Shown in pieces: positions 5,591 to 11,020 of a DNA stretch of 42,933 bases. The DNA is taken from positions 1 through 42,933 of the forward strand of contig CAITUP010000105.1 in the NCBI GenBank assembly GCA_903895595.1, read 5' to 3'. Position 1 is the first letter of the stretch. Each line of letters begins with the position of its first letter. Position numbers and translations under genes: made by a program. The stretch comes from an uncultured Acetobacteraceae bacterium (GTDB lineage: Bacteria > Pseudomonadota > Alphaproteobacteria > Acetobacterales > Acetobacteraceae). The notes under the pieces were generated by a model. The model saw only the letters and a list, made by a program, of their open reading frames with translations, was not told the DNA's origin and searched no databases.

Positions 5591-7186
5591 ATGGCTGCGA
5601 AAGACGTACGATTCGGCTCCGACGCCCGCCAGCGCATGCTGCGCGGCGTCGACGTATTGGCCGAAGCCGTGAAGGCGACGCTGGGGCCCAAGGGCCGCAA
5701 CGTCATTCTGGACAAGAGCTACGGCGCACCGCGCATCACCAAGGACGGCGTCACCGTCGCCAAGGAAATCGACCTGTCCGACAAGTTCGAGAACATGGGC
5801 GCCCAGATGGTGCGCGAAGTGGCCTCGAAGACCAACGACATCGCCGGCGACGGCACCACGACCGCCGTCGTGCTGGCACAAGCCATCGTGCGCGAAGGCA
5901 TCAAGGCCGTGTCCGCCGGGATGAACCCGATGGACCTGAAGCGCGGCGTCGATAAGGCCGTCGTGGCCCTGGTCGAAGAGCTGAAGAAGCGCTCCAAAAA
6001 GATCACCACCCAGGCGGAAACCGCCCAGGTCGGCACGATCTCGGCCAACGGCGAAGCGGACATCGGCAAGATGATCGCCGAAGCGATGCAGAAGGTCGGC
6101 AACGAAGGTGTCATCACCGTCGAAGAAGCCAAGGGCATCGCCACCGAACTGGATATCGTCGAAGGGATGCAGTTCGACCGCGGCTATCTGTCGCCGTACT
6201 TCATCACCAACGCCGAGAAGATGATCGTCGAGCTGGAACAGCCCTACATCCTGATCTACGAGAAGAAGCTCTCTGGCCTGCAGCCGATGCTGCCGCTGCT
6301 CGAAGCCGTCGCTCAATCGGGCCGTCCGCTGGTGATCATCGCCGAGGACGTCGAAGGCGAGGCGCTCGCGACCCTGGTCGTGAACAAGCTGCGCGGCGGG
6401 TTGAAGGTCGCGGCCGTGAAGGCGCCGGGCTTCGGGGATCGCCGCAAGGCGATGCTGGAAGACATCGCTATCCTGACCGGCGGCGAGATGATCAGCGAAG
6501 ACCTGGGCATCAAGCTGGAAAACGTGACGCTGGAGATGCTGGGGCGCACCAAGCGCATCTTGATCGACAAGGAAAACACCACCATCGTCGAAGGCGCCGG
6601 CAAGAAGGCCGACATCGTCGCACGTTGCGGCCAGATCCGGGCGCAAGTCGAGGAAACCACCTCGGACTACGACCGCGAGAAGCTGCAGGAACGTCTGGCC
6701 AAGTTGGCCGGCGGCGTGGCGATCATCCGTGTCGGCGGTTCCACGGAAGTGGAAGTGAAGGAGCGTAAGGACCGCGTCGACGACGCGCTGCACGCAACGC
6801 GCGCCGCTGTCGAAGAAGGCATCGTGCCGGGTGGCGGCGTGGCTCTGGCGCGCGCGTCTCTGGTTCTGGCGAAGCTCAAAGGCTCCAACGACGACGAGCG
6901 GGTCGGCATCGACATCGTGCGTCGCGCGGTGATGGCGCCGATGCGGCAGATCGCGACCAATGCCGGCGAAGACGGCGCGGTGATCTCCGGCAAGACGCTG
7001 GATAACGACGAGTACAACTGGGGCTACGACGCGCAGACCGGCGTGTTCAAGGAGCTGGTGAAGGCTGGGATCATCGACCCGACGAAGGTCGTGCGGTCCG
7101 CGCTGCAACACGCTGCCTCGATCGGTGGGCTGATGCTGACGACCGAAGCGATGGTTGCCGAACACGTCGAAGAACCCGCCGCCTAA
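5591..7186 (+). CDS. groEL: Chaperonin GroEL (Cpn60)
   Basis: ATP-driven folding chamber, two rings of seven. 531 aa, with the nucleotide-binding GDGTTT (Asp87) and the equatorial segment [21 protein letters not shown] with the catalytic Asp. Apical residues such as [10 protein letters not shown] and [10 protein letters not shown] are intact. The C-terminus ends in AEHVEEPAA: the flexible Gly-Gly-Met repeat tail found in most bacterial GroELs (about 547 aa) is missing, so the barrel floor lacks that element. AGGAAGA precedes the ATG. A strong terminator follows. Its last 120 nt and terminator occur a second time at 10846-11020. Confidence 0.98.
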
Positions 7187-7243
7187 GGCTCGTTCGCCGA
7201 TGACGAATGGGGGAGGATGCGCTCGCATCCTCCCTCTTTTTTT
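7067..7243 (+). repeat. Direct repeat copy 1: groEL 3' end plus terminator
   Basis: This stretch (last 40 groEL codons, stop, spacer, terminator) recurs in direct orientation at 10846-11020. There are four substitutions and no gaps in the 120 coding bases, five substitutions after the stop, and a 2-nt gap at the T-tract, about 95% identity overall. The two copies bracket macB, macA and a response-regulator remnant. Confidence 0.93.
7211..7243 (+). terminator. Factor-independent terminator of groESL
   Basis: GGGAGGATGC (7211-7220), 4-nt loop, GCATCCTCCC (7225-7234), then TCTTTTTTT. A perfect 10-bp stem with a U-run ends the groESL transcript 25 bp after the groEL stop. Confidence 0.95.
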
Positions 7244-7327
7244 GAAGCGGGCTTAATTCTCCCGGCACACAACGACCGATACTGTTTCACGCGACCGTGA
7301 CGGCGACAGCAACGGCCGCGCGCCGTC

Positions 7328-9424
7328 TTATTCGTACCGCAATGCCTCGATCGGGTCGAGCCGCGCGGCTTTGCGGGCCGGGTAGTAACCGAAGAAAATG
7401 CCGACAGCGGCGGAGAACAGAAAGCCCACCGCGATGGCCGTTGGGGACGTCGGCACCGGCCATCCCGTGATGAACCCGATCGCCTGCGACAACGCCAATC
7501 CCACCAGAATACCGGCGACCCCGCCCGTGACGCTCATCAACACCGCCTCGGCCAGAAATTGCAGCAGCACATGCAACCGGCGCGCACCGATGGCCATCCG
7601 CAACCCGATCTCGCGCGTCCGTTCGGTCACCGACACCAGTAGAATGTTCATGATGCCGATCCCGCCCACCAGCAGTGAAATCGACGCCACCGCGGCCAGC
7701 AGAATCGCCATGATACGCCCGCTGCTGGCGGCGGTTTCGGCGATCTGGCTCAGGTTGCGCACCGCGAAATCGGCGGGTGCCCCAACAGCGATGCGGTGGC
7801 GGCGTCGCAATGTTTCGGTCACCTGAGCGATGGCCGGCTTCACCGCGTCCGCGCTCGCCGCTTGCAGATAGAGTTGGTTCACGAAACCCGCCAAGCGCGG
7901 CTGCAACACGTAGGGGTTGGGCGGCAACGGATACACCCAGTTCAACGGCGTTTGCGCGGTGCTGGGGGCGGCGACGCCCAGGACCTTCCGCTCCCCTGTG
8001 TGGAATGGGATCATCACGACATCGTCCTGATCCTGGCCGTACGCCGTCTGCCCCTTCGCCGTCAGAACCCCGATAACCCGCAGCGGCACGCCCTTCACTT
8101 GCACCAGCGCGCCGATGGGGTCCGCGTCGCCGAACAGCTGCTGCGCGACCGTCGTGCCCAGCAGCACCACCAGCGACGCCCGCGCATCGTCCTCGGCCGT
8201 GATCGCTCGGCCGCTATCGATCTGCCAGTTGGTGACCGGCGGATAGTTGGGGCTGACGCCCTGAATCGACGTCGACCAGTTGCGGTTGCCGTTTTCGATC
8301 TGACCGCTCTGCCGGATCAAATAGCTGACGCTGGCGATGGCCTGATCCTCCCGCCGTATCGCCTGCGCGTCGCCTATTGTGATGACCGAGGCACTGCCGG
8401 CCCCGGCCCGCTGCCCGCCGGAGGTCACCGCGCCCGGCACGACCACCAGCAGATTGGTGCCCAAGCTGGCAATTTGCTTCAGCACGGCCTCATTCGCGCC
8501 CTGGCCGACCGAGACCATGACGATCAGCGCGGCGACGCCGATGAACACGCCGAGCATTGTCAGGGCGGAACGGGTCCGGTTGCGGAGCACGGCCTGGACG
8601 GCGGCGGTCAGGATCATCTGGGCCAAGGCGCCCGCGGCGCTGCCGGCGCCGGGCACCGTGGTGCTTGTCTGTGCCGCCCGAAACAGGCTGGTGTCCAGCA
8701 CCACCTCGGCCGCGGGTGCCCGGTGTTCCGGGTGCTCGTCGGTCACGATCAGCCCGTCGCGCATGGTCACCACCCGCTTGGCATAGGCGGCGATGTCCAT
8801 TTCATGCGTGACGACGACGATGGTGACCCCGTGATCGCGGTTCAGGGCGACCAGGGTGTCCATGATCTCATGCGAGGTGCGGGTATCCAGATTGCCTGTC
8901 GGCTCATCGGCCAACAGCAGGCTGGGGGTGTTGATCAAGGCGCGCGCGATGGCGACGCGTTGTTGTTGCCCGCCGGACAGCTGCGCCGGCGTATTATGCT
9001 CCCGCGACGTCAAACCCAGCAGCGCCAAGGACGCCCGTGCCCGCGTGTCGCGATCGGTGCGGCTGACCGGCCCGGCACTGGCATAGATCAGCGGCAGAGC
9101 GGTATTTTCCAGGGCACTGGTGCGGGCCAGCAGGTTGAAGCTTTGGAAGACGAATCCCAGCCGCTCGCCGCGAATGCGGGCCAATTCCGGCTCGCTGAGA
9201 TGCGCGACGTCCACGCCGTCCAGGAAATATTGGCCGGTGCTGGGTCTATCGAGGCACCCGAGGACCCCCATCAACGTCGACTTGCCGGATCCAGACGAAC
9301 CCATGATCGCAACGAACTCGCTCGGCAGAATTGTCAGACTAACACCCGCCAGCGCGTGCACGTCCATGTCGCCGACATGGTAGGTGCGGGTGACGTTTTC
9401 GACGCGAATGACCGGTTCGGCCAT
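7328..9424 (-). CDS. macB: MacB-type ABC transporter, fused ATPase-permease
   Basis: Inner-membrane component of a tripartite MacAB-like pump. 698 aa. The N-terminal ATPase has Walker [10 protein letters not shown] (42-50), signature LSGGQQQR (149-156) and Walker B LLADEP (170-175). Four membrane helices follow in the MacB pattern: one near residues 285-310 ([17 protein letters not shown]), a large periplasmic domain, and three near the C-terminus, including [28 protein letters not shown]. The family moves macrolides, toxins, peptides or lipoproteins across the outer membrane via a TolC-type channel; the cargo here is unknown. It starts 3 bp after macA ends, so the two are co-translated. No outer-membrane channel gene is nearby. 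Confidence 0.92.
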
Positions 9425-10735: not shown

Positions 10736-10755
10736 GAGGGAGGGTCGGAAAATGC

Positions 10756-10845
10756 TTATGCCGCAGGCAGAATCCCCCGCAACGCCGCCAGAAGACGTTC
10801 CGGCCGGCAGGGCTTCTGCAAATGCAGCGCCCCGGTAAACGCATG
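10756..10845 (-). pseudogene. C-terminal remnant of a response-regulator receiver domain
   Basis: About 29 codons ending in TAA at 10756-10758 encode [19 protein letters not shown] followed by [10 protein letters not shown]. The Lys-Pro pair after a short hydrophobic strand and the following PERLLAALR helix match the beta5-alpha5 end of CheY-like receiver domains or of a hybrid kinase. The frame loses all similarity at 10846, exactly where groEL-derived sequence starts. It lies 20 bp before macA in the same orientation, as a regulator in the same operon would. The domain call rests on a short segment. Confidence 0.55.
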
Positions 10846-11020
10846 GGGATCATCGACCCGACGAAGGTCGTGCGGTCCGCGCTGCAACACGCTGCCTCGA
10901 TCGGCGGCCTGATGCTGACGACCGAAGCAATGGTTGCCGAACACGTCGACGAACCCGCCGCCTAAGGTTGGTTCGCCGATAACGAAGGGGGGAGGATGCG
11001 CCCGCATCCTCCCTTTTTTT
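10846..11020 (+). pseudogene. Displaced groEL 3' fragment with its terminator (direct repeat copy 2)
   Basis: Corresponds to 7067-7243 with a constant offset of 3779 through the stop codon (TAA at 10963-10965). It encodes the last 39 GroEL residues (GIIDPTKVV to VDEPAA) with no start and no 5' part of the gene. All four coding differences fall at third codon positions; three are silent and one is Glu to Asp. It therefore looks like the end of a once-functional groEL gene rather than slowly decaying DNA. It forms the right boundary of the RR'-macAB block. Confidence 0.9.
10990..11020 (+). terminator. Terminator carried by the displaced groEL end
   Basis: GGGAGGATGC (10990-10999), GCCC loop, GCATCCTCCC (11004-11013), seven T. 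The only stem-loop change relative to the groEL terminator lies in the loop, so the hairpin is intact. It would block read-through toward the GT61 gene from the left. Confidence 0.9.

Follow-up and report, generated by a model that had tools for sequence, protein, structure and literature searches.

A displaced groEL 3' end behind a macAB block in an Acetobacteraceae contig: a candidate scar of additive insertion, with counterparts at a sister groEL locus

How does the tail of a housekeeping gene come to stand a second time, in the same orientation, on the far side of a pair of transporter genes? This question is raised by a contig stretch of 42,933 nucleotides (nt) from an uncultured Acetobacteraceae bacterium (assembly GCA_903895595.1, contig CAITUP010000105.1), hereafter the window, whose positions are used throughout; the window's own genome (G000) is a draft of 5.46 Mb in 170 contigs. 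In the window, an intact groEL gene (groEL1) is followed by macB, macA and a remnant of a cheY-like receiver gene, and then by a displaced copy of the groEL1 3' end. An original prediction, made from the sequence, had proposed that an element integrated into the 3' end of groEL, or else that a tandem groEL duplication collapsed. Our analysis favors, with a probability of roughly 0.55, the reading that an additive insertion left the repeat as its scar: one end of the incoming DNA would have found its anchor in the homologous groEL 3' end, and the other would have been joined illegitimately.

The direct repeat of the groEL 3' end and its terminator was confirmed with exact coordinates: positions 7067-7241 recur at 10846-11020 over 175 nt, of which 165 are identical (94%), with ten substitutions and no indel. 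The coding part covers 7067-7186 (39 codons and the stop), the initial 59 bases of both copies are the same, and none of the ten substitutions falls within the terminator hairpin, both arms of which are unchanged; homology between the copies stops inside the T-run of the terminator. Comparison of the second copy with its own genome gave a match with an E-value of 2.5e-73, the sole further match being a second groEL on contig C40, and groEL searches of this genome found no groEL 5' part beside the displaced copy, as had been predicted. Between the repeats, macB and macA were identified by Pfam and the truncated receiver by comparison with its homologues. An intact gene, an insert and a displaced 3' end, in this order, make up the layout of additive insertions at gene ends.

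The relatives used in this study are draft metagenome bins labelled Acetobacteraceae or Rhodospirillales, and the two closest to the window genome, G028 and G002, share about 82% DNA identity with it over the nuo genes. In both of them nuoN comes next after groEL1, the spacers measuring about 1.2 kb in G028 and 0.5 kb in G002, without the block, so that the block-free relatives sought for this locus do exist; in the window, the spacer measures approximately 7.3 kb and holds macB, macA, the cheY remnant, the groEL tail, a glycosyltransferase family 61 (GT61) gene and two rhomboid genes. Searches of G028 and G002 gave no match for this macB (E ≤ 1e-100) and none for GT61 (E ≤ 0.001), and these two genomes do not show GT61 to be the old neighbor of groEL. 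Base composition does not set macBA apart (0.65, against 0.64-0.67 in the left and right flanks); that of GT61 is 0.61.

The inner edge of the block lies within the receiver gene. The remnant resembles the end of stand-alone CheY-like proteins of 105-125 amino acids (aa), with 74-86% identity over the remnant, and its frame on the minus strand is normal back to the residues A-F, beyond which it reads groEL codon 493 in reverse; no extended sequence is shared at this junction. A truncation at this place is unexpected for the evolved end of an element and is expected for a broken DNA end that was joined without homology. No relative of a whole CheY-like protein was found in the window genome at E ≤ 1e-18, and a tblastn search with the 30-residue remnant beside macA in 80 macB loci of other genomes returned chance-like hits only. 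As predicted, no integrase was found: neither Pfam nor PHROGs identified any of the tested insert genes as an integrase or excision gene, with small open reading frames (ORFs) covered in part and the PHROGs scan taking in five insert genes plus three ORFs of genomes G007 and G012.

Based on these observations, we infer the following course of events. On the incoming DNA, macB, macA and cheY would have stood behind a groEL 3' end and terminator; the groEL end of this DNA would have paired by homology with the resident groEL1, and its far end, broken inside cheY, would have been joined without extended homology to codon 493 of the resident groEL. In the product, a whole groEL would be followed by the acquired genes, with the old tail of groEL behind them; the same product could arise by circularization and a single crossover. 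The repeats would then permit loss of the insert, unless its cargo is addictive and is retained; toxin-antitoxin cargo at the sister locus, groEL2, would persist because a deletion between the repeats would be harmful. One homologous and one non-homologous junction, the signature of homology-facilitated illegitimate recombination, are found together at this locus. The coordinates of its features are collected in Table 1.

Table 1. Features of the groEL1 locus, in window positions.
Feature	Position	Strand	Basis
groEL1, intact, 531 aa	5591..7186	+	Pfam Cpn60; ORF
Repeat copy 1: last 39 codons of groEL1, stop and terminator	7067-7241	+	Self-comparison
groEL1 intrinsic terminator (hairpin 7211-7234, then T-run)	7211..7243	+	
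macB-like ABC transporter, 698 aa	7328..9424	-	Pfam ABC_tran, MacB_PCD, FtsX
macA-like membrane fusion protein, 435 aa	9428..10735	-	Pfam HlyD families
CheY-like receiver gene, C-terminal 27-30 codons, cut at the groEL junction	about 10756-10848	-	
Repeat copy 2: groEL1 3' end, displaced; terminator at 10990-11020	10846..11020	+	
GT61 glycosyltransferase ORF, probably with an internal true start	10996..12189	+	Pfam Glyco_transf_61
Rhomboid-family protein, in the extra block relative to G002 and G028	12134..13303	-	Pfam Rhomboid
Second rhomboid-family protein, in the extra block	13264..14382	-	Pfam Rhomboid
nuoN, right limit of the extra block; groEL1 neighbor in G028 and G002	14566..16146	-	NCBIfam NuoN; synteny

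The search for other loci of this kind began with a groEL protein search of 33 genomes of the genus, in which partial groEL copies appeared downstream of others. We then compared each groEL and its 250-bp flank with the following 7 kb (less at contig ends) at 58 loci in 30 of the 33 genomes, counting as a piece any part of the groEL 3' half on the same strand with at least 80% identity. Scan and follow-up together identified such pieces at ten of the 58 loci, in nine genomes. Only one of 21 groEL1-type loci, the window itself, carries a piece, and nine of 37 groEL2-type loci do (G000:C40, G002:C141, G005:C17, G007:C18, G012:C39, G015:C162, G017:C243, G024:C91 and G029:C28). Other genes between two groEL ends, for which the original prediction proposed a check, are present at groEL2, and groEL1 offers no case beyond the window. 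G005 and G024 were counted from separate locus comparisons, the scan having used the displaced piece as its reference there, and at G000:C40, G005, G015 and G024 the upstream groEL leaves the contig end, which places its completeness out of view. The 58 loci do not include G001, G004 and G008, nor extra groEL copies such as G024:C138, G024:C6, G022:C240 and G005:C19; the count also omits pieces of low identity (64-73%) in G030, G010 and G022:C496 and inverted terminator matches confined to the flank.

As a control, lon yielded no such piece at any of 22 loci, apart from one inverted terminator-like hit; the downstream sequence was between 197 nt and 7 kb long (the full 7 kb at 12 loci), compared with 304 nt to 7 kb for groEL. 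A whole-genome search matched lon in 30 of the 33 genomes without a piece beside a full lon; G001 (81%) and G003 (68%) have short matches on contigs lacking a full lon, and those of G004, G005 and G032 are weaker (30-38%). Local repeats of at least 100 bp were detected at ten of 43 groEL or macAB loci of the genus, three of them not groEL (L084, L104 and L106), and at three of 80 macB loci. The examined subset of family genomes beyond the genus yielded no confirmed displaced piece: the search covered 150 genomes, three of which belong to the genus (the window genome included), and the 49 non-genus genomes with at least two matches among the matches listed were searched again. The short non-genus hits in G102, G181 and G065 sit at contig ends, further partial matches also start or end there, and one in G068:C141 (59% identity, short frame) was not examined further.

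Some repeats and interruptions were recorded alongside this survey. Direct repeats of about 200 bp (84-86%), not recognizably groEL, follow groEL2 at a distance of some hundred bases in G018 (L104, 10684-11184) and G030 (L106, 8795-9281), and a direct repeat of about 100 bp (91% identical) is found at 28972-29221 of the window, on the 3' side of lon. In G004, two groEL copies and lon are split by stretches of approximately 250-310 bp, some in open frames (L093 = C34, L228 = C137, and C42), which may reflect a genome-wide insertion or an assembly oddity.

All nine piece-bearing groEL2 loci have addiction-type genes near the piece. Using Pfam, we found a HigB-like gene with a helix-turn-helix (HTH) gene, an HI1420-type antidote, RHH_6 with PIN, and BrnA/BrnT in G024; BrnT/BrnA and PIN in G007; YafQ/RelB in G012, a pair 2.5 kb from groEL2; DUF4160/DUF2442 in G015, which we take to be toxin-antitoxin-like; a HigB-like gene and HTH in G029; HigB_toxin with HTH in G002; and the HI1420-type antidote in G000:C40 and G017. 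The partner of this antidote has no Pfam match in G024 or G017 and a sub-threshold match to Gp49 in G000:C40, and we name it a putative killer from its place and sequence; the PIN ORF of G005 is, by eye, nearly identical to that of G007. Ramisetty and Santhosh reportedly described, in 2016, horizontally acquired chromosomal toxin-antitoxin pairs of E. coli, with small addiction modules spreading between chromosomes. No paper on groEL pieces beside toxin-antitoxin genes was present among the matches listed in the open-access literature.

In a comparison in which the cargo ORFs of piece-bearing loci were picked by eye for the Pfam scan and pieceless loci were scanned completely, the 27 pieceless groEL2 loci gave, among 140 ORFs starting within 750 bp, one DUF4160 and one DUF2442 ORF, that is, a single toxin-antitoxin-like pair, together with one ORF for a DDE_3 endonuclease and 12 with cold-shock domains; around lon, the 72 ORFs included a single antitoxin-like one (PSK_trans_fac). 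A tblastn search to 5 kb, biased in that its queries came from piece-bearing loci, gave toxin-antitoxin-like hits at four pieceless groEL2 loci (G022:C14, G009:C44, G019 and G020) and at none of the 21 groEL1 or 22 lon loci.

Three of the loci deserve separate description. In G024:C91 (L227, 1-5600), five toxin-antitoxin modules lie within about 5 kb between groEL2 and rpsA (named by eye), with groEL pieces between them, and the killer/antidote module is present twice (1649-2317 and 4460-5149, 88%). In G000:C40 (L100, 525-1440), behind the second groEL come an antidote/killer pair and a groEL tail with an internal deletion, in which nt 1176-1219 are joined to 1616-1693. In G015 (L226, 1644-2831), the groEL piece lies upstream of, and in frame with, a lipoprotein-like ORF, for which it could provide a groEL-derived N-terminal extension.

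A filled and an empty form of the same site are available in G002 and G028. The empty order, in G028:C326, is groEL2, terminator and cspA; in G002:C141, groEL2 and its terminator are followed by a HigA/HigB-like pair, by the 24 final nt of groEL, which include the stop, together with a second copy of the terminator, and by the same cspA flank as in G028, minus 19 nt. The piece amounts to 85 bp within an otherwise native flank, and the pair shows an insertion before cspA.

The edges of the pieces bear on how they arose. They start at about groEL nt 974-1003, 1175-1182, 1202-1204, 1381, 1477 and 1621, with more starts in the G024 array. The 974-1003 start lies beside PIN in G005, G007 and G024; the groEL junction with this toxin gene recurs in G005 and G007, with a slightly different break in G024, which indicates that such junctions exist. 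The 1175-1182 start is found in five genomes (G000:C40, G007, G015, G017 and G024) beside different cargo, and these copies may descend from a single piece whose cargo was exchanged.

Such variable starts are not predicted by a single attachment site, and this bears on the explanation that the block is a relict of a site-specific element which used the groEL 3' end as its attachment site, replaced that end and later lost its integrase. We consider this unlikely. The topology is the same, phage-inducible chromosomal islands (PICIs) occupy groEL 3' ends in staphylococci (PMC8125051), and a 163-bp icd' copy is given for e14 (PMC6379469), close in size to the repeat here; the direct repeats and the intact host gene of an integrase-borne island are likewise present. 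Against this, no integrase was found among the insert genes tested and no constant crossover site across the loci, and the junction cuts through cheY. What the data support of the proposed integration into the groEL 3' end is the layout and the block-free relatives; a site-specific element is not supported.

The collapse of a tandem duplication, in which a second full groEL beyond macAB would have lost its 5' part and most of cheY by deletion, also appears improbable to us. The internal deletions in the pieces of G000:C40, G007 and G024 and the array of groEL pieces in G024 would suit it. So would part of the substitution pattern, counted as silent/replacement differences between piece and upstream copy: G015 (14/15, with a neutral P of 0.008 for so few replacements), G012 (5/5, P = 0.07) and G029 (13.7 silent, 29.3 replacement) are nearer neutral. 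However, the divergence in G007 is mainly silent (24/5, P = 1.3e-10), so that this piece looks as if it diverged in a working groEL and was then imported, which the sequence suggests; G005 shows a silent excess as well (10/3, P = 1.7e-4), and the window has four coding changes only (3/1, P = 0.06). With the majority state among up to 25 groEL2 or 21 groEL1 genes, and no tree, as the guide to which changes belong to the piece, the counts were 16/5 in G007, 4/1 in G005, 3/5 in G012, 10/15 in G015 and 1/1 in the window. In addition, no full groEL pair with cargo between its members, or flanking macAB, was found among the matches in the 33 genus genomes, which are draft contigs, and the G002 piece, 85 bp within a flank that is otherwise native, also speaks against it. 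This alternative of the original prediction is weakened as a result.

At the other edge, homology stops at the T-run, or within about 10 nt of it (0-10 nt), in the window, G002, G005, G007, G029 and two G024 copies; it ends inside the terminator in G000:C40, two further G024 copies also differ, and the pieces in G012, G015 and G017 stop short of the gene end. A stop at the T-run fits an insertion just behind the terminator and does not discriminate recombination from polymerase template switching at the groEL terminator or from the insertion of a complementary DNA (cDNA) of the groEL transcript, processes in which a shared 3' end and a truncated 5' end would be natural. We regard these as very unlikely: spacers are expected to diverge at the T-run anyway, the three pieces that stop before the gene end and those of G000:C40 and two G024 copies do not conform, no Rfam family, and so no group II intron RNA at the gathering score, was found in nine loci, and the silent-change excess in G007 argues for import. 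An artefact of the draft assembly is the least credible, since, although the window junction is known from one assembly alone, without reads, and no protein spanning it was found in the homologue search, the copies differ at ten sites, groEL meets an unrelated gene at the left junction without extended shared sequence, and the groEL-PIN junction recurs in other genomes.

It is important to consider the points that weigh against the additive insertion itself. First, a donor with groEL-macB-macA-cheY was not found: macB is 87% identical, at the protein level, in G026, with no groEL match in the surrounding 16 kb; at the macAB pairs of G026, G003, G008 and G004, the window DNA matches macAB only (both G004 contigs being shorter than 5 kb); and groEL directly adjoins macAB in none of 80 macB loci searched by blastn with window DNA, where flanks are often limited by contig ends. 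Second, G000, G002 and G028 are about equally distant, which formally allows a loss of the block in both G002 and G028. Third, four coding differences between the window copies are too few to decide their origin, and the near-neutral pieces of G012, G015 and G029 look as decayed duplicates would. Finally, for pairing by RecA, 85 bp of homology as in G002 is a short stretch, and the insertion model does not account for the frequent hits at groEL2. As separate observations, groEL lies about 5 kb (L179) and about 2 kb (L215) from macAB in a Rhizobiales bacterium and in Paraburkholderia (2 of 80 macB loci), and G003:C39 carries a groEL paralogue, 59% identical, approximately 21 kb from macB.

Extended to the genus, the additive insertion leads to a reading that we offer tentatively and with more doubt than belief: the groEL 3' end with its terminator may serve as a portable homology arm for small integrase-free cassettes, mostly toxin-antitoxin modules and once macAB, which would enter any groEL by ordinary recombination, leave via the repeats and persist when their loss harms the cell. 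The G024 locus would then be a chain of captures, its five modules separated by groEL pieces from groEL2 to rpsA. If the pattern holds, a housekeeping gene end can be an integration hot spot without a recombinase of its own, and direct repeats coupled to addiction modules would offer a natural test of whether such modules persist by punishing their own deletion. A displaced gene tail alone is, in any case, no proof of an integrase.

Known systems share parts of this picture. Staphylococci provide genuine cases of integration at groEL 3' ends (PMC8125051): their PICIs (SeCISE48 and relatives) insert there, leave the gene intact and have an attachment site that overlaps the gene end; they differ in having an integrase and an 18-bp overlap, whereas here no integrase was found in the tested genes, the repeat is 175 bp long and the starts vary. 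The prophage e14 at icd (PMC6379469) likewise has a long displaced gene tail (163 bp) beyond the insert, but it is a site-specific prophage, whereas in the window macAB, GT61 and rhomboid genes make up the insert. Transformable bacteria are known to undergo homology-facilitated illegitimate recombination, as does E. coli at low frequency (PMC3240628), and the same mechanism has been proposed for type VI secretion system (T6SS) immunity arrays in Vibrio (PMC5361080). The Vibrio leftovers are immunity genes at T6SS clusters, whereas here they are groEL pieces, the groEL2 cargo is mostly toxin-antitoxin genes and the mechanism is one that we infer; what the cases would have in common is one homologous anchor with one illegitimate end, proposed in Vibrio as the builder of remnant arrays behind a constant gene.

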